The notes under the pieces were generated by a model. The model had not been told where the DNA came from and did no database searches. It saw only the letters and a list, made by a program, of their open reading frames with translations. Both the position numbers and the translations under genes were made by a program. DNA of 64,000 nucleotides from Ulota crispa (taxonomy: Eukaryota > Streptophyta > Bryopsida > Orthotrichales > Orthotrichaceae): contig OY987252.1 in NCBI GenBank assembly GCA_963920765.1, positions 4,821,966 through 4,885,965 of the forward strand. The letters run 5' to 3'. Numbering within the stretch: position 1 is the first letter of the stretch; each line of letters begins with the position of its first letter. Positions 24,846 through 64,000 of the stretch are shown in pieces.

Positions 24846-27800
24846 ATGATGGACTGCAGGGGAACTGCACCCCCTGCAACTAGTATCGTCTTCGTTTGCA
24901 ATCTACCACCTGGCATGTCCGAGGTTTTTCTTGCTGATCACTTCGGTCAAGTTGGTCTTATTCTGGTATTGCTATGTTCCTTTCCCCTCTTCTCTCTTAC
25001 ATGTGCGGAATTGGCGTGTCAAGGCAATTCAGCTATTTTTTTCAGGGTTCCACAGCTTGTGGCTTGGAAATCTGATATCAGCACATGAAACATGCTTCTT
25101 ACAGAAAGATACAATATCTGGTGCCCCAATGATATGGTTGTACCGTGACAAGAACACCCAAGCGCTTAATGGCGACGCAGCTATAGCCTTCGAAGATCCC
25201 CATGCTGCTGTGGCTGCGGTGGAGATGTTCAATAACACCGAGTTTCGTGGTAACAAAATAAGTGTCTCAACAGCGGAAGGTGTACAGTTTTTAACTCTGG
25301 TTGCAACGCCACCTACAATCGTGAACCACAACACGCATGGTGTCTCTGAACATGGGGCAGATTCATGTTTTGCACCAGACACTAGTGGTTACGGTGGTGT
25401 TAAGATTGGGGGGAGTATTGAAGGTTCTGGAGGACCAATGTACTTGGAGGAAGGTAGAAGAAGGGGACGTATAGATGGCAAACTTTGGCAACAAGAGGGG
25501 GATTGGCCGTGTCCAAATTCCAGGTTCGTGTCGAGTTTTATATCAGCAGCAAGAAACTTTTCCTCTTGAGGATTTCCATCCACCTGTGCATCACGGGGTC
25601 TCACTGTTATTTATTACGGCGCCATTCTCTTTGATGAGAACTTTTGTGTGTGATCCTGATGTGTACGTCAACAGGTTTTTTTAGTTAGGCAATGGAGAAT
25701 AACCGATTTTGTGGGATTGCAGCTGTGTCAACATCAATTTTGCATTCCGAGGTATTTGCAATCGATGTGGTAGTACTCGCCCTGCAGGTAGTTTAGTGAG
25801 TGCGGGAGGCGGAATAGGAGGCGGTCGAGGTCGGAGTCGGGAAGCTACTGAAGCAGGTTCTAGAGGACGAGGACCTGGTGGACCACCTGGCTTGTTCGGT
25901 CCCAATGACTGGAGTTGTCCAATGTATGTTTTAGCTTGCTATTTTTAAGGAGTCAAGAGCTTTCTGCTTCAAGATTACCTTCCTTTAACTAATCAGTTGA
26001 ATGTGTACCGATTTCTCAGCCTCTTTTTGCTGTGGTTTCTCCTTTCGGGTTTAGCGTCAACTCGTCGCTTGAATCGTAAATATCACTAGTGCTAGTACAC
26101 ACAAGCAAGTTCTGAATATTGTAATACATATCGTCTTCAAAGGAAGTTATTTTTTTATCTATCATTTTGAGTTAAACGTTCATAATGTACTAGTCCTAAT
26201 GCAATTTAATGTTCGATCATTGAGACAATGCTTGATTGAGTGTGCCTCGAGGCTTACTTGTCCATAGCTATTGCTCTCATTCTAAGAATTTTACTCACCA
26301 TATTGGAACGAGAAGGAACCAAGTAAGTCGATGCAGAGTGAGATCCATCTGTAGATATTCTGCAGTGAATAATTAAAATACGTCTGATGTAGTTCGTTCT
26401 GACACTAATTTTTTCTTTACTCTTTGATTGTTTGCTTCAGAGTTTCCGGTATATGGATATTTAAGTTGCATTATAGCACATTTATTTGAGCTTTGGCAAA
26501 AGATTCATAAATGTTCGGTGTTGTTGGGAGAAGTGCGTGTTTTCTGACCGGCCCTGCTTGATGTTGCCAGAAAGTTTATCTTTGGCGACCTTTATTTAAG
26601 GGTTATTGAATGTTGGTTTTAGCCAGCTGATCATTCTGTGGATATTTTAGGTGTGGAAACATAAATTGGGCTAAACGCTGGAAGTGCAACATTTGCAATA
26701 CTTCAAAACCAGGCCACAGTGAAGGTGGTGCCAGGTCTGTGTGGCCATTTCAAAATCAAAAGTTATATGTATAGTCCTTTTGATATTTTCTATGGTGATT
26801 TTGTCAGCTAGATTTTAAATGGAATAGGCTCTGCTTTGTAGAGATATTAGTTTTATATCTTCTGATTTGATGTTTGTGAATTTCTGTTTTTATGTTCTGT
26901 GAGTTGATGAGATTAAACGGTACTACTTTAAAATTGAATCGTTAGCGTTGCATAGGTTTAAATAAGAAGATTGCCTATTTTAGAGCACAACAGCCCAACC
27001 TTTCTCTGAACTTGAATACCAAGAAAATTTTGTGATGACGATTTTTCTGTAGCCCTCATTATTAGAAGATTTTGATGTAGCTTCGTAGTGTAATTACTTG
27101 GGTTTTATGTCTTTGATGGTGAAATATTTCATTGAATTTCACATAGTTAGTGAGGTTTTTCTGCCGGAGCTGATTTTATCAGTGTTTGATTAGGCTCCTA
27201 GAGTCAGACATATGTTTGGGGATCTGCTGCATGTTTATTTACATGGTATTGTCACATTTTTAGAGAGGGAAGGGCAGGAGGTTTTAAAGAGTTTGACGAA
27301 GCAGAAATCGAAGAAACAAAGCGTAGACGACGCGAACAAGAGAAGGTTTGTCTTCTTTGCCTTTCTCAGTCACATGCTTTAGACTTGAGAACAGGTATGG
27401 ATAGACGAAGTTGGTGAAAAACGTAGACATGGAGATTGACTTTGATATCTGTTTAAACAAATGATCGTCTATGTTTACCGTGGTGTTGATTGTTTGATGG
27501 AAACGAATAATCTGGTTTAACCCTTGGTCTCTCAAATGAACAAGCTAGACGTGTTAATTGGAATAGCATTTGCTGCCACCGATGCTGAGGTTGCTCTACA
27601 TTAATATAGTTTTTCCAGAAAGCCTGTTCAAGCTTGGTGGGTTGAATTAGTATTATCTGGTGTAGTTGTTCGACATTCCTTTCATGACCAACGTCTCAGT
27701 TACATATGTCGATTTGTCTAGTGATGCATGCTTGGCTTCTTTTTTCCTGCTCTTCCAGGATGATGGCGAAATGTACGACGAATTTGGAAATCTCAAGAAG

Positions 27801-37637: not shown

Positions 37638-37904
37638 TATAAAAGCCCTATCACGAGACATGGCGTCGAGGGTCTCTCCATATTGTAGTGCTTGCGTGGA
37701 TTAGTGTGTTGCTAATCTACAAGTTAAGACGCGCGCTTGGCATGCAACATTCATCCAATGGATGGATTTCATCCGTTAGGGTTGTGTGTGTGTACATAGT
37801 GGCATGCAAGCCCTTGACTTGACTTTCTTTGTCAAGTTAAGCTTTGTGAGTGAGTTGAGAGTGTTAGTGATTGTTTTGCTTGTAATTGATGTTTTATTAA
37901 TAAA
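37638..37904 (+). promoter_or_regulatory. TATA box and AATAAA block, LTR-like
   Basis: A good TATAAAAG box at 37638-37645 is followed, 260 bp later, by AATAAA at 37899-37904 with no coding frame between. This compact promoter-to-polyadenylation arrangement is typical of the U3-R part of an LTR. I could not locate TG...CA ends or a primer-binding site, so an ordinary promoter for the hAT gene downstream remains possible. Confidence 0.35.
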
Positions 37905-38108
37905 ATCTCATTGTTTTCTATCATTTTACACTTGTTGATTCTTCCTTTGTGGAGTGCAAGACGATTGACTACTAGTGAGTTAGAACCTAATCACTTGACA
38001 AATAGAGAGTTTGTGGTTTTGGATTAGGGTTGAGTAATCTGAAGTTTGAGTGAGGATTCATGTGCATTGCTTTAGGCGGTCACAAACATTGAGGCAAAAA
38101 TGACGTAG

Positions 38109-38614: not shown

Positions 38615-41286
38615 GTGGCAATGGGAGTGGGGAGGACTCAATGGAATCCTTGGTACACGCATCAATCAAATGGAAAAAGTGCATGCAATTACACTGGGAC
38701 TTTAATAAGTTATCAAAAAGATTGCTTGCTTTTCCATTTGGGGTACAAAGGAAATAATAACCTCCCTAGCGTGAGGTCTTGCAACAAAGTTGTTGCAGCT
38801 AAGAAGGCCATGTTTTTCAATTGTGGAGGAAATGTACTTGTTGTCTTTTTGGGTGAAATTGAAAATAATGTGGAAGTGATATTGCCGTCAACAACTCTAG
38901 CAAGTGCGGTATATGGAGAGCGGCAGCGTACTACTTTAGTCTCAGCAAATGAAGATGCAGAACCGTACAAGGGGCAATGCTCCCAAGTACAATTGTCAAA
39001 GGCGTCTGGCCCTAGTTTAACCCCCAATTGACCTTTGAGGCAATTATTTGTACAAGAAGGAATGAATTCCTCAAAGAAATGGTTGCTAAATAAGAAATGG
39101 GCTAAGTTTTTTTATGAAGCTAATATATTATTCAATGTAGCAAAGCACCCTGCTTTTATAGATGCAGTGAGATCAACATCAAAGGCAAAAGTTCTATATA
39201 AACCTCCAATTTACCATGCACTTTGTACAAAGCTCTTGGGATCTGCAAAAGGTGAAGTGGTAGCAATAGTGGTAGAAAAGACAAGGAGACCAATCTATAA
39301 GTATGGTGTGACAATATGCTCAGATGGATGGGACAATGTCTCACATTGGCCATTGATCAATATCATGTTGGCATGTACAAGCGGAGAGGTATTTCTTAGA
39401 TTGGTAGATACCACAGGTGAAAGCAAAGATGCTACCTACCTGGCTAATTGTATGCTTGATTTCATCAAAAAAGTGGGGGGTCAGAATGTAGTACAAGTTT
39501 GCACAGACAACGTAGGGAGCATGCGTGCTGCCTCTGCTTGAATAATTGGACGGTTTCTACACATTTACTTCCAAGGTTGTGCAGCGCATGTGCTGGACCT
39601 TTTACTTGAGGATTGGGAAAAACAAGATTGGATAACTAGCATTGTGGGGAAAACAAGGCTCATTGTAAATTAAATTTGTAGGCATCATATGCCACTTGCA
39701 ATCTTTTGTCAGCATTCTTCCAATCACATGCTTAAATATCCAAATGAAATGCGCTTTGCAACAACATTCCTCATAATTGAGCGGTTGGTGGAAGTAAGGG
39801 AAGCCATGGAATTGACTATCCATGATCCGCAATGGAATGAGTACATGAGGAAATTGACAATAGACAAAACTTGGAAAAAGGTGGACTTTGTTCGACAACA
39901 TGTGCAATCAAATGCCTTTTGAAGGTCATGATTGAACTTTGTGCGCATGGTGGAGCTTGTCTTGGTTGCCCTTTGAGAGTTTGATGGCAAGCGTCCGTGT
40001 ATGGAGAAGGCATGGCTTGTGATGAAGAACGTGGAGAAGATGGTTTTATCTTTCAAGGATCCATTGTTTTCTTTACCAGCTTATTATGCGGGTCGCGCTG
40101 AAGACAAATTTTATGCAAGGTGGGATATGATGAGAATAGATCTGCATTACGCAGGTGCTCTATTGAATCTCTTCTTACTTGATGAAGTCACGCTAATGGA
40201 CCATGATGAAGCAAAACAAGCCATATTGAGAGTATTGCGCAAAATGTCAGATGGAGACCAAGCGTTTGCCTCAGCTTTGTCTGAGTACCAAGCTTTCCGA
40301 GAGGAGCAAGGCCATTTTGGTGGACTCCCAAGCGTTCACACCTGAAATTTGGAGCCCCATGAATAGTGGGATTTTCTTGGAGCGGGTGCCTGTACTCTTG
40401 CACCAATTGCCAAAAGGATCCTCGTACAAGTATGCTTTGCATCATCATGCAAACGCAATTGAAGCATGTACTCCTTTGTTCACAACAACGCCCGCAATAG
40501 ATTGACATCAGAACGCACAAAGCAATTGATTTATATTTATACAAATTCCAAGGCTATGAAGGACAGGGCTGCAGCTGATCCAACAAGGTGGTATACCAAG
40601 AACATGATATCAGAAGACTCCATGGTAGAAGAATTTGATAGTCTGGACCATGGATTTGTTCTCTCCAACCCTGACAACGACAACTTCAATGAAAATGGTG
40701 ACCCGTTTTGTAGGGACAGTGGAAGGCAGGGAAGGCGTACCTAATTGACGAGTCCATATTTGACTTTGATGAAGGGGATACTATTGGCAATGGCCATGAG
40801 GGACTCAAACAAAGACCACGGCATATTGCACATGCATGGACTCATGTACCAAGTGGGAGAAATACAGAGTCTTGAAGACATTGTAGCAGAAACTCTACCA
40901 AATCTAGACACTCTTGACAAACGAGTGGCCACTTTAACATTACCAGGTGGTATTCAAGTTCAAGGAGAATACGAACATGATGAGGTCGTACCACCAACAT
41001 TGCCTGCTCAAAATGCTCGTATAGAAGGCCCTTTTGTACTCCTGTGGTAGATATGCCTCTTCCACATGAAGTCTCAAGTGGAGTGCAACATAAGACGCCC
41101 ATATTGGACAATCCACCAATTCAAAATTTGTCTAGGCCATCTTCTTCTGAGGTTCATCTTGCTCCATCATCTTTGTCAATAGGCACACGGTTGACTAATC
41201 TCTTTCCAACTTTGAATATGCCAGAGTGTAGGACTTCATACTGGGCTTCATCACGCCCAGGTGTACGTCCAAGCAATCCATCTTAG
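38615..41286 (+). pseudogene. hAT-family transposase pseudogene
   Basis: One frame runs from 38615 to the stop at 40742 with about nine internal stops and no net frameshift. The N-terminal part (38615-38820) resembles a BED zinc finger (SACNYTGTLISYQKDCLLFH). Residues encoded about 39150-39541 match the DUF659 transposase core: YGVTICSDGWDNVSHWPLIN, VDTTGESKDATYLAN and NVVQVCTDN. The C-terminal hAT dimerisation region (40370-40560) has CKRN*SMYSFVHNNARNRL then LIYIYTN, where the stop replaces the invariant Trp. Stops are TGA or TAA at positions expected to be Trp, Arg or Gln. A Ser/Pro-rich tail continues in another frame to about 41286. hAT enzymes cut and paste DNA with 8-bp target duplications; the ends of this element were not found. 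Confidence 0.82.
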
Positions 41287-55924: not shown

Positions 55925-56640
55925 TTGAAGCGAGCTGTCCAACCAAGCCGTCCACTTGGCTGCCAAACAAGGCCATCCATGTGGCCGTCCTCTAAATTGT
56001 CAAACTAGGCCGTCCATCTAGTTGTCCAAGAAGGCCGTCAAACTAGGCCCTCCATGTGGCTGTCCAAGAATGCCGTCACACTAGGCCGTCCATCTTGGCG
56101 TCCAACTGAGATGTCCATTTGGCCGTCAGGGCAAGCCGTCCATCTCGTCGTCCAACCGAGATGTCCATCTGGCCATTAGGGCAAGCCGTCCATCTAGTTG
56201 TCCATCCAGATCGTCGAAACACGGCGTCCATCTGGCCGTCCAAGATGGCCGTCAAACTAAATTGTCCATCTAGCCGTCCGACCAAGATGTCCACCTGGCC
56301 ATCATACCAAGCCGTCCGACCAAGCCGTCCATCTGGCCGTCCATATCGATCGTCAACGTGGAGTCGTGGATTGTTGACCTGTTTGTCCAACGAGGTTTAT
56401 TGTCAATTGAAGACATCCTATGCGTGCATTGCAATGTCTGTCCAGTGGATTTTGAAAGTGCGGTCGACGGTTTTGTCAATAGATTCATGCATCCATTGCT
56501 CTTTTTCATCCACTTCTAGAAGTTTGTTGACAAATTTCATCTTGACGGACGCCAAGGTTGGATCCTGACGCTTGGACGGACATCCGAATGTCCGGATGTG
56601 ATGTGACAAGGACAAACTTGGTTAAATGGCTGTACTTGTG
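55925..56640. repeat. CCGTCCA-rich array, 5' of the gag/methyltransferase element
   Basis: From 55925 to about 56360 the DNA is an almost continuous series of GGCCGTCCATCTGG-, GCCGTCCAAGATGG- and GGCCGTCAAACTA-like units with a basic period of 11-13 bp. Looser copies continue to 56590 (CTTGGACGGACATCCG). Open frames on both strands are by-products (repeated Arg-Pro-Ser or Asp-Gly-Arg). Confidence 0.75.
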
Positions 56641-56675: not shown

Positions 56676-57962
56676 TTGTCTGAGAGTGTGAAGCCCACGT
56701 GGAGACGGAGCAACAAGTTGGCCAAAGCACGGCGACAGGAGGCGCGGTTGCGGTCACAGCAGCAGGGTTTGCGGGGTCCATGCAACGGAAGGCGTGGCAG
56801 GATTTGCGGGGTCAGCAGCCAGGACGACGTTGAAGAGCGAAGACAATGTTGGAGAACAAAGGCAATGTCAAGGAGCAAAGGCGACTTCAAGGCGAAGTGA
56901 CGGCAAAGAGGTGACCATTGCACAAGAGTAGTGTCGGAGCAAGGATCTCACAAAGCAGCGCCAAAGCGGATTTTGAGGAGAGGCAGTCAGGGTTTCATCC
57001 TTGAATTTCATTCCATTTGTTTCATCCACCTTGGTTTTCTATCCTTTGAGGTTCTTCACCCCTGCCCTTTCATTCCGGATACAAGATTTGAGTTTGAACC
57101 AGAGTGGAGTTAACTCAAAGCAGAGTTGCTCCATGGTAGGAAGCTGGATATTTTTAGTCCACATACATGCTAAAATCTACTCCACCCGGACATCTTGTAT
57201 ATCTGAAATTTTTAAATCAAGTACATTTTGCAATCTAATCATAAGAGCACATTTCTAAATCCACCCTCCACCTAGATCTTGGAAATCCAAAATCTAGAAA
57301 TAGGTACATTCCAACAATCTATGGAAGTATAAATCTTCATTATTCCTAAATTTTGAAGGAATTGCCAAAGTTGTTTTAGTGCATTTTGAGCATTAATTTT
57401 GAGGGCAATTTCACTTGGATTTGAGTGAGATTTGCTCCCATAGTTGAGGATATTTGCCACTTAATCCATCTGTAGTGTTGGATGGCATTTTGGCCCGTTA
57501 TATCACCCATTTTGGCAATTTGCATTAGGAGATTCATGTTTTGTGAACATTGCAGCCGGAGTATCCTATTATCTCTTTAGTTTTAGACATTGAGAGAACA
57601 CTTTTAGTATTTTCCTTTGCTTTGCAGGCATTGCGACTTGGGGTTTTCCACTACATGCGTGCACTAATGGCGTTGACCCTTTCGATTTGTGCTTTTATGT
57701 TGTTTGGGAAGAAGATCTAGTTTTGATTGTTGGATTTAATTGTTGGTACCTTCTCTATATGCGGACAATGTCTTGTTTTGTGTTGTTGGGTGTTGGGCAT
57801 ATTGTGAAAGTGAGGTCAAATTGATTGCCAATGAGACCTTTTTGTATGCATTGAATTTGTATAATCCGGAATTGATCACCGGTAGACCACATAGATTGGT
57901 GGTGATTGCAGGTTAGATTGCCCTTACCCTGTAGATAGTTGTAGGTACTCGGTAGTTTATTT
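56676..57962 (+). other. Leader-like region upstream of gag
   Basis: 56676-57000 is purine-rich with GGAGCAAAGGCGAC-like imperfect repeats. It then turns pyrimidine-rich (57000-57070) and AT-rich, with possible acceptors such as TTTGCTTTGCAG at about 57628. No persistent coding frame. It could be the transcribed 5' leader of the element, possibly spliced. Confidence 0.3.
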
Positions 57963-60900
57963 ATGGTGAGCACGAGGAGTCAGTACTATCGCTCCCCTTT
58001 GCTAGACTATCCAGAGGGTACTTCTATTTCAAAACTTGGGCCAAAGTCGGATATTGACGAGGCTTTTGAGCATGTTTCAAAATTGGATACCAATTATAGG
58101 CTTCGGGTTTGGACTGTTGGCATGCTCAACAACACAAAGGACAATCATCACCATGTTGTGCAAGACCATTTCTCAAGACAGGCTGCGGGCATCTCCCTAC
58201 CCGATTGGGGGTGCCAATTCCACACATGGATGAAGGAGAAGTGTCAGCAAACACCGTTGTTCAATGACTGGTATGCATTTGAGCTTCTATCCCAGCATTT
58301 GGAGCTAGAGGCTCTTCAGACGTATGGGTCATGGATTGCACGACACGCAAAGTAGTTGCACCTAGTGGAAGATTACTGGCTCACCCAGATGGAGTTGGTG
58401 ACCGCTCTCAAGGAGAGTGTAGTTGGCCGAGTTTCTACTATTATTGATCAGCCCAAGACGGAAGAGGGGTCTTCTAGTAGTGAGCGGCTTGGCATGGGGA
58501 TCATGTTATGTCTGGCCCAAGCCACACAAGCGGCATTAGATGAGGTTGGTCCTTTGCCAGCATTCATCCTCTAGCGCTTTTCTTGGTGCATTTGGAAGCA
58601 GAGAACGGATGATTCTGACGGGATCAAATGAAGCAAATCTAAGAATTCCGCCGTGAGAAGGAGGATACTCCTCGCACCATGTATACTTGGTTGGTAGCAG
58701 CAGCTAGCAATGTCTTCACACAGCGTTAGCTAGTACACATTTACTTGTCCAAATTGGATAAGCGGATGGTAGATATGCTTGACGCGCGTCTCCTCTTCTG
58801 CTATCATGGTAACAAAACTTTGGTAGAAGATTTTGCCGAGGTATAAGAGCGAGGCAAGGCTCTTGGTGTGAGAGAAGCCACAGTCTTAGCCATGACCATG
58901 ATGGACACTCCCAAGCCTAAGAAGCTTGCTATCGTGACTGGTAGCTTGGCAAAGGCACAATCTAAGAGGGTTGTGTACTATTGGGCTTGTGGAGAAGCCG
59001 GCCACGCCAAAGGAGACCCAAAACGCTCCAAAAAAAAGGATGCAGGTGCTGCAAAGGCTAAATCCAAGATTGAGGTGCCCAAGACTGAGGCACCAAAGTC
59101 TAGCAACAAGACTAGGGGCAAGGGAAAGAAGCCTTTGGTAAATTTTCATTGTGGCAAATCCGGCCATAGTGATGAGAGATGCTTAATTATTCATCCAAAT
59201 AAGCGCCCAGGATCTTTAGCTGCCAGATCAAATGAGGTGAAGATACTTCAAGCTAAAATTGTAGAGCTCAAGATGAAGATGAGTGCAATGGCTTCTTTGG
59301 AGCAAATGGCGGACGCACAAGCTCCAATCAAGAGTCATGGCTCATCTTTCGTCATGGATGCCTATTTGTATGGCGTCTCACGGCAGATTGTGGCAAGGAT
59401 TGCTACTCGCGCTTAGACCACCGCACAGATAGTGGCATCTTCTTCAACTCCTGCCAATAATGGCGGGCGTCAGCGACACATAGGGTTGCCGGATCACACT
59501 AGGTAGTCCCAGTTACTTCTATCTTTCAGCATTGCAAATGCAACTACTTCTAGTGCCACTCCTCCTCTGCCTTTTGTTTCTCAAATTTCCCCCACTGAAG
59601 GGAATAGCACACACAATTTGGCGTACAAGTTATTGCAATTTCATATGTTTCTTGGAGTGGATTTCATGACACAAGATTTTTAACCGTCTAGTGTGTCTCA
59701 TTTGGCGGGGAGTATGTTGGAGGGCAAAGTGCCTATACCATCATTGGAGGTGTCGCAGGCAGTGATGGCTCCACCCACTATGGAGGATTTGCTGGCCATG
59801 CAAGCCGAATTGGCGGCAAAGGCTATTTTTGCATTTGAGGCCAATGCCCCATTGACATCTATTATGTAGTCATCCGTAGTGACTTATTTGTCTCACATTG
59901 CGGCTTGTTCTATCCTGGAGAGACGCAACTTGCATTTAGGGGTGATACGTTTGGTAAATGACAATAGAATTATGGTGGTTGGTAATACCAATGGCAACTC
60001 TAGATGAGCCACTCTTGTGTGCGTTATGTTAGATTCCGCGGCTTAGCCAGTCATGATTGGCAAATAACTAATCCAAGATTTGGATTTAGTCGCTGTTGAT
60101 GTTGAGCCTTGCCCATTCACAATTATCACATCAATTGGGGGCACGAAGATGGTCCTGTGTTATACACAACATTCATTATAGTTGATGTTCAGTGTAGGAT
60201 CAAGTCAATTGTTCTCCCATGTATCTTTCTAGTGCACTATGACCGGTGCTACCAATTACAACATTTTGGTGGGCCAACAAGCACTATATCCACTCCATTT
60301 GGCTTGGATAACTAGACAGAGGAGGCATGGATTAGGCCACAATGGTCTGCCGGCAATGGTAGCAAAGAGCTCATTCTTGTTACCTTTGTAGCTAACGTAG
60401 TGACCTCTATAGCAAAGACTGTGTTTGGATGCACTATTTTGGCATTTGATTTGCCATGTCGTTCCATACTTTTGGATGAGACATATGCATTTATGTTAGC
60501 ACTTGAAGAATCATGTGAGTATGCACTTATAGAGATCCTTGCACGCCATTGCAAGGATCTGTTTCCACCATGGGGAACTCAATGGGAGCTTACTCGTCAC
60601 AGTAGAGAGATTGTGGATGCTTTTGATGCTCCTCAATCCCTTTTGGATTCTTTTGCACTATTATTGGTTTGCACTATTCAGTAGGTGCCACCAGACAATG
60701 ACATTACCCTTGTCAAGTTCTTTGCTGGCATTGGTATAGGATTAGCAGCTATATTAGACGCCAAGGGCAAGGTGCAAAAATACATTCATGTCAACTGTGA
60801 CTTTGCAGCCAACCGTGCCGCTTGCCACCACATACATTGTTTGTTGGTGTTATATCTTGAGCAGCTTCAACCTTCTGCTATCCATGGATGTATTGGCAAG

Positions 60901-61195
60901 TTGCCACGGGATGTTACACTTATTAGTAAGGATGATCTCTAGAGGCTAGGCCATGTGGATCTAGTGATTGCTGGATGGCTTTGCCAAGGCCATTCACGAG
61001 CAGACAACGAACGTGGATTAGATGATTCAAGGTCATCACTCTTTGCAGATTTACTCAGGCTCATCCAGCGGTGGGTTATCCACCAATCTATGCCTCCAAG
61101 GTACATTTTTTAGAATGTATCTCCGTCGGGTGACGCACAAGTGAAGGTGTGTGAGGATGGTGCATACATCCATTCATCACAAACTCTCAAATAGT
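57963..61195 (+). pseudogene. Retroelement-like gag, retropepsin and C5-DNA-methyltransferase remnant
   Basis: The frame opens at ATG 57963 with a gag-like helical protein (to about 58574, TAG at 58353). It shifts near 58600 and continues through a Lys-rich part with two defective zinc knuckles (ACGEAGHAKGDPK; FHCGKSGHSDERC; each lacks its first Cys). About 60000-60290 is retropepsin-like: VMLDSAA*PVMIGK and NYNILVGQQALYPL. After a 2-nt shift near 60295, one frame runs to 61195 with four TAG stops. It encodes a C5 methyltransferase: motif I VKFFAGIGIGLAAILDA (60715-60765), motif IV GHVDLVIAGWLCQGHSRA (Cys codon 60982-60984), RGLDDSRSSLFADLLRLIQ, and motif VI YIF*NV with a stop (61111-61113) where Glu is required. 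Order I-IV-VI is canonical, unlike permuted plant DRM enzymes. No reverse transcriptase was found. Defective throughout. Confidence 0.75.
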
Positions 61196-61476: not shown

Positions 61477-62121
61477 CCCCTAAATGCCCAAGCAACCAAA
61501 TTTAGGTTGCAAGGAAAATTTGAAGATGAATAAAACCTTATCAAATCATTATTTTCAGCTTTTTTTTTTTCAATATAAGTTTGTTTTCATGTCTACTTTC
61601 AACATCAAAAATCTGATTTTGAAAATAAAAGTTGATGATTTTTCGACATGAGATTTTGTACGAGGGTGTCCACTGCAATCTTGAGTTACCTAGTGTTGGA
61701 AGATTTTGAAAATGAGCCTCAAATACACTAGAGCTTGGAGAAATTCCACGTTAGAAACCCATTTAAAAAAAATATAGGAATAGATTTTCAAAACCATAAA
61801 TTTATTTGAATTAGACATGTAATGACCTTAAACCTCATATTTTTATGGTGACCAACTTTTTGGATTTGACATATAAAATGAGGATTGGAAGAATTTAAGT
61901 CACTTTTGCAGTTTTAACACCTTCATGTTCAAATATTATAATCTTTCAAACTATAAGTGATACTATTGTGTTTTCTTTTTTCATGTAATCTCTAAGATGT
62001 TTAGCTTAAATTTGTACGGTTACAATTGAAAAATCCTTGATGGAATTTATGAAGAGGTTGATTGATTGTTTAGTTTCATAGAAAGTCCAAGAAGCTCAAA
62101 GAGAGCTTAGGCATTTAGGGG
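61477..62121 (+). mobile_element. TA-flanked TIR element, copy B (645 bp)
   Basis: The left end ACCCCTAAATGCCCAAGC and the complement of the right end, ACCCCTAAATGCCTAAGC, are inverted repeats flanked by TA (61475-61476 and 62122-62123). It is related along its whole length to copy A at 45866-46520 (for example CATGTAAT, ATTTGACATATAAAATGAGG and TTTCAAACTATAAGTGATA). No coding capacity. It abuts the transposase remnant at 62.1 kb. Confidence 0.75.
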
Positions 62122-62129
62122 TTAAAGGC

Positions 62130-64000
62130 ATTTATAAAATAAGTGCCTTCTTCACAAAAATTCAGAAGCACTTGAATGGTTTGTAGGATATTTTGAACAT
62201 CAAGAATCATGTAAGGATCATAAATTCCTTTATCATGCTTGGCCTTAAATATAAAGACTTGAAGACTCATAGTTTGCCAAGTGAGATGAGGGCATAGAAC
62301 CAACCTACTAAGGTGAGTAGCTGGAACCTTGTGATACATTTGTAGAAATGCTAAATCTTTTACAACAAGATTTTGTTCTTCATCTTTCAAAGACACTTTA
62401 AAAATCAACCGCAATTGTCCATAGAAGGTCAATTCAAGCTCACCAGCTGCCTCCATCTGTATGGCAACACTAAAATACCATGGTGAACCATAAAAGTTGC
62501 TTGTGGCCCGTGTATATTGTGGCATATTACCAAAGCGCTCACCAAGACCTATTGGAATGGCTAAAGATGTAAAGACATGAAGTACCTATTCAAATCAAGG
62601 AATTGATTATCAACTTTTATGCATTGACTTTCTTATTGCTTCCAAATAGAATACAAGTAGTATACACTAATTGCAATTCAAGCAACCATGCTCAAATTGA
62701 TTGCCAACTGTACCAAAGTTGCAGTATGAAATTTGAGCTTGTGAAAACCATACCTCTCCACTTGTGAAATTATTCTTAGCTTTGTAAATGTTCAAAGTTT
62801 TGTGGAAGAAGGTTTGTAGCTCTGGTTGCTGAGAAATGAGGGTTTGAGTGCTCTTAGATACAAAAAGCTATGTAGAGTCAAATGTGAAGCCACATGCAGG
62901 ATCCAATCATGAGCTTTGCAAATTGACTTTGGCTCCCTATAGAATATTAAGACCTGTTTCCACAGCCTTCATACAAACATCACACCAAATAACTAAAAGT
63001 TAGATCTACTATGTCTTTGTATTCAATTAAAGCCATTTTGGCATTTTTGGTTATAGCTTTGTGACAACAAAATTTAGACAAAAATTTTCACACAACCCAA
63101 AAAATAATCTTATCACAGTAACTAGATAATCTAGTTTGAATACTTATTTGGTCTAGAGCAGTGTACTTTTCTTTTTGCCTCATGTCAAAACCCTGCATAG
63201 TGTCTTGCAACTTGCGTAAGGCACCTAGCCATTGATTGTGCCTAGCAATTTGAGGAGTAGCTTGCCTCTTATTGCTAGCTCTATATCTAGCCTTCATCAA
63301 GGTTATGTGCATTTGTTCGTACATGTTGGTACTATATTCCCAAGGAAGTCCTAATCGACAAATACAATTACTAAAATATGACATGGCATGTATTTTCATC
63401 ATATTAAATCTTGACTTTTGCCATTCAGACATAGCCCACTTCAAAGCCTATACAGATCTAATTATCCAAAAATTATGTTAGAATAAAATATTCATTCATT
63501 TGTAAGACAACAGTAATACATGAACGTACACTTTTGAAAAACTTAAATTAGTAATTGAAGTAGATTAAAATTTGAATTGACAACTTACCTTATCATTACG
63601 TTATCCATTTCAACCAATGAATCTCTTGTGTGTTTTGGACTACAAGTAGCAACCTTATAGCATTTCAAAAATAACACAAAGGCCTTGACGACGTCATCTT
63701 TATAGATCCCAATGAGACACAAAACAATCACTTGAAAATAACACACAATTTCTAATAAAACTTTTGCACTTCATTATAGAAAGTTATTAGTAAGATCACT
63801 ATTCTATGGTAAAATAAGAATAAAAAACCATTGTCACAATAACTGAAAGAAATCAACATACAAAATTGTCCTTCTAAAATGAGATTGAAAGAACCTGCAT
63901 GACTACTCGTTATTCAAAACCTGCAAAGTTTGCATTGGATTCAAAGTATCCTCCCTTATCAATTCCTGGAATCTTGGCATCAATATCACAAAAAATGAAA
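62130..64000 (-). pseudogene. Plavaka-like (CACTA/EnSpm-type) transposase remnant
   Basis: Minus-strand coding pieces run in order from the window end: IDAKIPGIDKGGYFESN (about 63970), GIYKDDVVKAFVLFLKCYK (about 63690), and 63444-63088 with LGLPWEYSTNMYEQMHITLM then KARYRASNKRQATPQIARHN. They continue with TLISQQPELQTFFHKTLNIY (about 62800) and 62585-62130 with YTRATSNFYGSPWYFSVAIQ. The Y-x-T-x-x-x-E-x-x-H-I and YRASNKR motifs followed by an H/Q-rich helix are those of Plavaka-type DDE transposases, best known from fungi. Frameshifts and intron-like gaps separate the pieces. The N-terminal part is outside the window. Confidence 0.6.

Follow-up and report, generated by a model that had tools for sequence, protein, structure and literature searches.

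Cytosine methylation is normally directed at transposons. In the charophyte alga Klebsormidium nitens, a Gypsy-type long terminal repeat (LTR) retrotransposon, KnitGypsy-Dnmt3, itself bears a DNMT3 methyltransferase (de Mendoza et al. 2018, PMC5890265), and the enzyme of a dinoflagellate element, SymbioDIRS-Dnmt3, methylated CG sites de novo in yeast (PMC5890265). A later paper restates these cases as "streptophytes and dinoflagellates" (PMC12344493), and another treats host DNMT3 only (PMC10952607). The window that we analyzed is a 64,000-nucleotide stretch of the moss Ulota crispa (assembly GCA_963920765.1, contig OY987252.1, positions 4,821,966 to 4,885,965 of the forward strand). Its positions 57396 to 61173 (plus strand) hold the decayed 5' part of a Gypsy-type retrotransposon, in the order leader, gag, zinc knuckles, retropepsin, and DNMT3-type cytosine-C5 methyltransferase. 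This is very probably a dead copy of a moss Gypsy-type family whose working members encode Gag-Protease-Methyltransferase, a leaky TAG, and then, by read-through, reverse transcriptase (RT), RNase H, integrase, and a PHD finger. A first-pass annotation of the window had cited LTR elements with captured methyltransferases from dinoflagellates and a charophyte, which is right for the charophyte Gypsy/LTR element, but the dinoflagellate carriers are long interspersed nuclear element (LINE) and DIRS types (PMC5890265).

The C5-methyltransferase in the window is real and beyond chance. Positions 60946 to 61110 alone (55 codons) passed the Pfam cut-off for PF00145 (25 bits, cut-off of 22, E = 1.6e-5), as did a read-through translation of 60316 to 61110 (26.6 bits), so the methyltransferase call of the first-pass annotation holds in a profile search. 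A protein search with the same read-through returned nine proteins at 52 to 74% identity (best E = 1.2e-74). Three database proteins, P0001, P0008, and P0009, carry the retropepsin end and the linker behind it unbroken in one frame, and P0001 continues into the methyltransferase. To see which type of METHYLTRANSFERASE this is, we compared a profile built from four relatives with all PDB chains, and it ranked DNMT3C, 3B, and 3A at the top (E from 2e-8) and M.HaeIII (2e-5), M.HhaI (2e-4), DNMT2 (0.11), and the DRM chain 4onj (0.49) lower; plant DNMT3 itself is absent from the chains listed. No chain named DNMT1 or CMT appeared up to E = 10, on which ground we rejected a CMT or DNMT1 (MET1) placement. 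DRM was rejected for the poor rank of 4onj and because the motif order, I-IV-VI, is unpermuted in the window and its relatives. The DNMT3-like placement proposed earlier, over CMT, MET1/DNMT1, and permuted DRM, is thus borne out. Two permuted DRM-like genes (L056 and L059) occur elsewhere in the Ulota crispa genome.

The PCQ of motif IV aligned in 33 of 35 protein relatives and the EN of motif VI in 34; the motif VIII pattern matched 27 and missed all five Marchantia proteins. In the window, motif I reads FFAGIGIG (60718 to 60741; ELFAGIGTG in close relatives), motif IV GWLCQGHS (60973 to 60996; GWPCQGHS in the aligned relatives), and motif VI (61102 to 61128; YIFENVPPL in close relatives by alignment) has a stop in place of its Glu codon. 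The three motifs had been called recognizable; two are damaged, motif IV by Leu for Pro and motif VI by the stop.

The complete plan of the element is given by L001, which turned up when contigs of bacterial and archaeal genomes were scanned with four aligned methyltransferases, all complete or nearly so. It was the sole relative among 19 pattern matches and lies on a 9285-bp contig (CADCWO010000201.1) whose ends share 127 identical bases, an overlap that fits a circularly closed assembly of 9158 bp. Open reading frame 1 (ORF1) runs for 1346 uninterrupted codons from the gag ATG to a TAG and comprises gag, two zinc knuckles, protease (Asp_protease_2 at 20.5 bits, under the cut-off of 24.3), and methyltransferase. 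After this single TAG, ORF2 continues in the same frame for 1047 codons, in which Pfam recognizes RVT_1, RNase H, Integrase_H2C2, rve, and PHD. A tblastn search with ORF1 spans window positions 57951 to 61173 in three frames (62%, 58%, and 68% identity), and the DNA is 72% identical over 58492 to 61173 and 73% over 57866 to 58456. Together with the PF00145 match, this alignment upholds the earlier description of gag-like, zinc-knuckle, and retropepsin segments followed by a C5-methyltransferase on one strand. Although L001 is a retrotransposon of eukaryotic type, it is filed in a metagenome-assembled genome of a Synechococcales cyanobacterium; it is probably a contaminant and could pass for a bacterial methyltransferase. 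A search of that metagenome-assembled genome for matK, which carries little weight, gave nothing. One protein relative, P0003, carries the label Candidatus Obscuribacterales.

The same arrangement recurs across the Ulota crispa genome (274.8 Mb, 157 contigs searched). A methyltransferase query gave at least 103 matches, merging to at least 90 loci (101 of 159 candidates were scored, which makes these counts lower bounds). When the 30 best of the 103 were read along with the 1.5 kb flanking them on either side, the protease lay directly upstream and RT directly downstream of the methyltransferase in all 30, so the adjacency of the gag-pro and methyltransferase parts claimed for the window holds elsewhere. 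For RT, at least 91 matches merged to at least 85 loci (85 of 1003 candidates scored); 75 of the 85 have a same-strand methyltransferase no more than 1.5 kb upstream, and 7 have none within 20 kb, though one of these seven overlaps a methyltransferase match and was itself a casualty of the cut-off. The decay of the window copy, and nothing else, would suit an accidental neighborhood in which a host methyltransferase retrocopy came to lie beside an unrelated gag-pro fossil. This idea is refuted, with practically no probability left to it, by the constant order in the 30 best loci, by L001, which carries the whole plan, and by the protease-methyltransferase fusion proteins in public databases. 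By identity to the methyltransferase query P0005, the copies form two subfamilies, A at about 60 to 74%, which includes the window copy, and B at about 50%. Two pairs of equal-scoring methyltransferase copies lie in opposite orientation, L014/L015 about 20 kb apart (C3:32753160 on the minus strand and 32773881 on the plus strand) and L017/L018 about 11 kb apart (C4:9402334, minus, and 9413279, plus), as in inverted duplications or an assembly effect.

At the junction between methyltransferase and RT, 26 of the 30 loci have one in-frame stop (23 TAG, 3 TAA) followed by CARYYA; two pairs among the 30 are equal-scoring duplicates. The same context is present in L001 (TAG-CAATCA) and in the window element's own continuation. 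The second codon after the stop alternates among Ser, Pro, and Leu, but YYA is retained, which points to constraint at the nucleotide level. UAG-CAR-YYA is the leaky read-through context of tobacco mosaic virus. Judging from this context, we consider it likely that read-through occurs and that the methyltransferase would consequently be made at Gag-like amounts, far in excess of RT. Separate starts of ORF1 and ORF2, with the TAG context inherited and unused, seem quite unlikely, because the two frames are the same with a single stop between them, CARYYA is kept in two diverged subfamilies, and ORF2 of L001 has no Met before residue 117. A start at that Met would barely contain RT, whose RVT_1 match begins at residue 128 (profile position 7), and would lose everything before it.

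The window copy cannot make the enzyme. Frame shifts lie near 58566 and 60298, and there are 19 in-frame stops over 57963 to 61173: 1 in 57963 to 58565, 14 in 58568 to 60297, and 4 in 60298 to 61173, with 2 of these 4 in the methyltransferase part. The stretch from 57963 to 61195 that had been described as an ORF is therefore not a single frame. Its limits also shift: comparison with the same-genome copies cL009 and cL012 puts the upstream edge of homology at 57396, in the leader, and homology ends at an insertion after 61173.

All parts of the copy lie on the plus strand. The 3' part of the leader (57396 to 57962), whose 5' end and first A repeat (the terminal repeat described below) are missing, belongs to a stretch (57396 to 59228) with 80.8% and 81.5% nucleotide identity to cL009 and cL012. 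The N-terminal part of gag (57963 to 58565) begins MVSTRSQYYRSP and is 62% identical to the N terminus of L001 ORF1; the C-terminal part (58568 to 59416) is in a shifted frame, within a tblastn match over 58568 to 60373 at 58% identity. Two degenerate zinc knuckles follow within it, YWACGEAGHAKGDP at 58979 to 59020 (L001 counterpart, CWACGEAGHTKGDPNC) and NFHCGKSGHSDERC at 59141 to 59182 (counterpart CSHCGKTGHSNENC, a canonical CX2CX4HX4C); zf-CCHC was matched in the window only at E = 1. Since Pfam gave no gag match in the window, we base the name gag on position and on the zinc knuckles that follow. The retropepsin-type protease (60005 to 60307; VMLDSAA ... NILVGQQALYPL) aligns to LDSGAQPVMIGK...NYDILVGQQALYPLGF of L001. 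The linker between protease and methyltransferase (60298 to 60702; TEEAWIRPQWSAGNGSKELI...) lies in a stretch, 60298 to 60939, that is 63% identical to P0001. The N-terminal part of the methyltransferase (60703 to 61173), which holds the PF00145 match and is 73% identical to residues 1 to 154 of P0005, is truncated by the insertion.

This insertion of 12.8 kb occupies the window from 61174 to its end at 64000 and runs to C11:4895927 on the same contig; its ends are inverted, AAACTCTCAAA on one side and TTTGAGAGTTT on the other. The element resumes at C11:4895928, with L001 position 2711 mapping to window position 61173 and 2713 to the resumption point. Beyond the insertion lie the remainder of the methyltransferase (C11:4895928-4896702), TAG-CAATCA, and 310 RT codons ending at C11:4897641 (RT match, C11:4896706-4897638). 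Integrase or further ORF2 sequence was not found in the 48 kb past this RT, and no 5' terminal repeat was found near the window copy, on which no terminal repeats are left. Two ORFs of the insertion within the window, 62115-62585 and 63088-63447, both on the minus strand, had no Pfam match at E = 0.01.

Selection on the methyltransferase can be read from ten subfamily A stretches of nine copies, the window copy counting as two halves. Relative to L001, the ratio of nonsynonymous to synonymous divergence (dN/dS) was 0.18 to 0.26 for the methyltransferase, 0.14 to 0.22 for RT (nine stretches), 0.09 to 0.19 for protease (nine), and 0.18 to 0.29 for gag (eight); in subfamily B, dS was large or saturated. 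These ratios show that the methyltransferase evolved under purifying selection like the other domains while the family lived. They include neutral decay after insertion, so selection in the family's lifetime was probably stronger. Decay affects almost all pieces seen in this genome, as might be expected if the methyltransferase were a passenger, acquired in a single capture and replicated with the element but of no use to it. We regard this as very unlikely, given that its dN/dS is near those of RT and gag and that PCQ is retained in all but two protein relatives. Moreover, of the 33 proteins found with L001 ORF1, 31 show the methyltransferase by profile, and the other two, to which the profile was not applied, stop at or short of the point where the methyltransferase begins. 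The decay itself is dominated by C>T, with 453 of 809 private changes (56%) in the subfamily A stretches, at rates of 0.110 per CG, 0.127 per CHG, and 0.076 per CHH site (A>G, 0.013). Of 202 stops compared with L001, 102 are a single C>T or G>A away from it, 27 are separated by a single change of another type, and 73 by several changes. This pattern fits cytosine methylation in CG, CHG, and CHH contexts.

Paired direct repeats flank the methyltransferase copies L013, L033, L022, and L010; in the two pairs compared, identity was 92.3% over 297 bp and 87.4% over 301 bp. In L013, L033, and L010, the 3' end consists of a purine-rich tract, B (about 105 bp), A, and B. Thus B-A-B was present at three of the four 3' ends seen; the fourth, in cL009, is B only, which is what recombination between two B units would leave, and the stretch fetched for cL012 includes no 3' end. 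All five 5' ends examined have A without B. The elements end in TGTC...GACA, with point changes in single copies. The repeat order, A-coding-B-A-B, is that of DIRS elements, combined with Gypsy domains. A lone A repeat of the same family, which also flanks methyltransferase copies elsewhere, lies in the window at 37648 to 38002 (plus strand; 76% identity to L001:7056-7424). It sits upstream of a DUF659 match at 39032 to 39541, perhaps a hAT remnant.

The 33 proteins from the L001 ORF1 search (8000 best candidates scored) include P0011 to P0019, which have full or nearly full gag-pro-methyltransferase (1252 to 1376 amino acids, 57 to 82% identity to L001 ORF1), and P0032 to P0036 of the liverwort Marchantia polymorpha (29 to 37% identity), annotated as hypothetical or CCHC-type. 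P0039 to P0042, from metagenomes, each unite RT, RNase H, integrase, PHD, and methyltransferase in one polyprotein; the P0039 cluster has 196 member sequences. The methyltransferase lies between RNase H and integrase in P0039 and between protease and RT in P0037, so the position of the domain has varied. In a midpoint-rooted methyltransferase tree of 55 rows, which exclude plant and animal DNMT3 genes, the window copy, whose row fills 38% of the columns, falls within a moss-A clade (support, 100/100) that is joined by L001 and metagenome copies (100/100). Separate clades are formed by moss-B and by Marchantia (100/100 each), and P0037 to P0043 group at 93/92; P0012 and P0036 carry extra sequence, and P0031 and P0041 have long branches. 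A viral origin was rejected: one scan of viral contigs gave no relative, and another gave only six short methyltransferase matches (33 to 61% identity over 33 to 101 residues).

Most probably, Gag-Protease-Methyltransferase would be the main product, translated from one ATG and ending at the single leaky TAG, and read-through would add RT, RNase H, integrase, and the PHD finger. The protease may cut the product inside particles, after which the methyltransferase could methylate element DNA or the chromatin around its copies. The PHD finger, which a search of three 3' stretches from this genome found in two (the third includes no element end), is closest to those of PHF12, Cph2, CHD4, and UHRF1, with PHF21A further down the list. 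Several of these PHD proteins read unmodified H3 tails. An integrase bearing such a finger might favor chromatin with unmodified H3K4, and writing and reading one silent state might lessen the damage to the host and allow insertions to be tolerated. The methyltransferase probably methylates cytosines de novo. It is a more tentative suggestion that the enzyme acts mainly on the cDNA or integrated copies of its own element and on nearby chromatin, and that the PHD finger reads unmodified H3 and steers insertion to silent chromatin, a safe, quiet habitat both written and read. The enzyme might instead work inside the particle, where it would act on the element's cDNA or RNA or form a structural component of Gag, with chromosomal methylation incidental. 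Its place at the end of the Gag-Pro product, 5' of the leaky stop, where packaged proteins lie, favors such a role, but the nearest solved relatives are DNMT3 DNA methyltransferases and the SymbioDIRS-Dnmt3 enzyme acts de novo on DNA in yeast, and we judge it rather unlikely.

Several observations weigh against our account of a self-methylating family with a leaky stop. Stops interrupt 102 of 103 methyltransferase matches and all 91 RT matches, and the sole stop-free methyltransferase match is a 101-residue end piece; no uninterrupted copy was thus seen among the at least 103 methyltransferase matches, and the suggestion that such families are active elsewhere in this genome finds no support here. 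The stop context is absent or lost in 4 of the 30 loci (the stop is missing from L021 and L028, L029 has TAG-CAATTG, and the junction of L036 is lost). Marchantia has a weak motif I (LFGGISTG) and P0037 to P0043 a weaker one still, P0034 is gapped at motif IV, and P0038 reads ECQ. A clear target-site duplication was found in one of four copies (GATC, cL009); L013 has a near-duplication only (TTTAGCT on both sides, two bases off), and L033 and L010 have none. The C>T decay fits host methylation as well as self-methylation. KnitGypsy-Dnmt3 showed no methylation in yeast, a result that its authors call inconclusive (PMC5890265). Anatomy, selection, and decay are directly visible in the copies, and it is from sequence that we infer enzyme activity, read-through, and targeting.

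Other features of the window include a block of overlapping 133-nucleotide repeats at 56009 to 56355, 5' of the element, and an RRM match at 24850 to 25569 (22.5 bits, cut-off of 20.7), likely a host gene exon; no tRNA or Rfam family was found in the window. Elsewhere in the assembly, a second full matK match (C7:6541578-6542525), with an open frame of 522 amino acids on a large contig, exists besides the one on C157 and is probably a nuclear copy of plastid DNA. The plastid matK identifies the host as a true moss (Bryopsida): among the best 120 of 283 matches, its identity is 84% to Orthodontium lineare, 83% to Bartramia pomiformis, 94% to a metagenome matK (P0044), about 55% to Sphagnum and Takakia, and 42 to 45% to liverworts.

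The kind of element to which the moss family belongs, a DNMT3-bearing Gypsy/LTR retrotransposon, is already known from KnitGypsy-Dnmt3 (PMC5890265). The moss family has a PF00145 domain of DNMT3 type, RT, RNase H, and rve in the same element, and direct terminal repeats. Likened by description rather than sequence, the algal and moss elements share an unpermuted DNMT3-type methyltransferase under purifying selection and, per the legend of Figure 4 in that paper, A-coding-B-A-B repeats despite Gypsy domains (PMC5890265). No K. nitens record was among the named matches of our two protein searches (window read-through and L001 ORF1). They differ in host, alga versus moss, and in that the algal methyltransferase is described in the Pol polyprotein ORF, whereas the moss enzyme lies in the Gag-Pro ORF, between the protease and the single in-frame TAG that parts it from RT, and counts as Pol only with read-through. 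The accessible text on KnitGypsy-Dnmt3 mentions neither a PHD finger nor a leaky stop (PMC5890265). SymbioDIRS-Dnmt3 likewise has a DNMT3-type methyltransferase in a retrotransposon Pol and a DIRS-type repeat arrangement, but it uses a tyrosine recombinase (PMC5890265); the moss-type L001 has an rve integrase, for which reason we rejected membership among DIRS retrotransposons. P0039 to P0042 share RT, RNase H, rve integrase, PHD, and a DNMT3-like methyltransferase with the moss family, and P0039, the one mapped, differs in having a single ORF with its methyltransferase between RNase H and integrase. Five Marchantia polymorpha proteins (Mp_4g09160 and MARPO_0008s0049, 0084s0073, 0063s0090, and 0020s0163) align to L001 ORF1 with the methyltransferase at the C-terminal side (PCQ in four of five, ENV in all five); they differ in forming their own clade, with mutual identity of 61 to 88%. 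The moss host genes PpDNMT3a/b are also unpermuted and of DNMT3 type, but have a DUF3444 domain (Yaari et al. 2019, PMC6453930), and transposon proteins such as those described here can be miscounted as host DNMT3 genes.

The first-pass annotation knew of no well-described land-plant example; we too found no report of such an element from a bryophyte in the openly licensed literature, but the Marchantia proteins were already in databases. As far as our searches of that literature reach, what is new is a land-plant family, in a moss, of about 90 loci with its leaky-stop arrangement and its PHD finger, together with the recognition of the Marchantia proteins as the same kind. It is conceivable, and we advance it with reserve, that these are an old streptophyte lineage owning a de novo methylation system, in which DNMT3 fused to Gag-Protease, made at particle-protein amounts by way of a leaky stop, is joined by a PHD reader on the integrase, and DIRS-like repeats with a DDE integrase would imply unusual replication; the lineage might persist in mosses and liverworts, intact in some hosts, as a second, transposon-owned source of 5-methylcytosine. 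A land-plant transposon family carries the writer of methylation itself, kept by selection while the family lived. Because Marchantia genetics is easy, the reason for a transposon to methylate DNA can be tested directly, now that the phenomenon extends from one alga and the dinoflagellates to mosses and the liverwort Marchantia.

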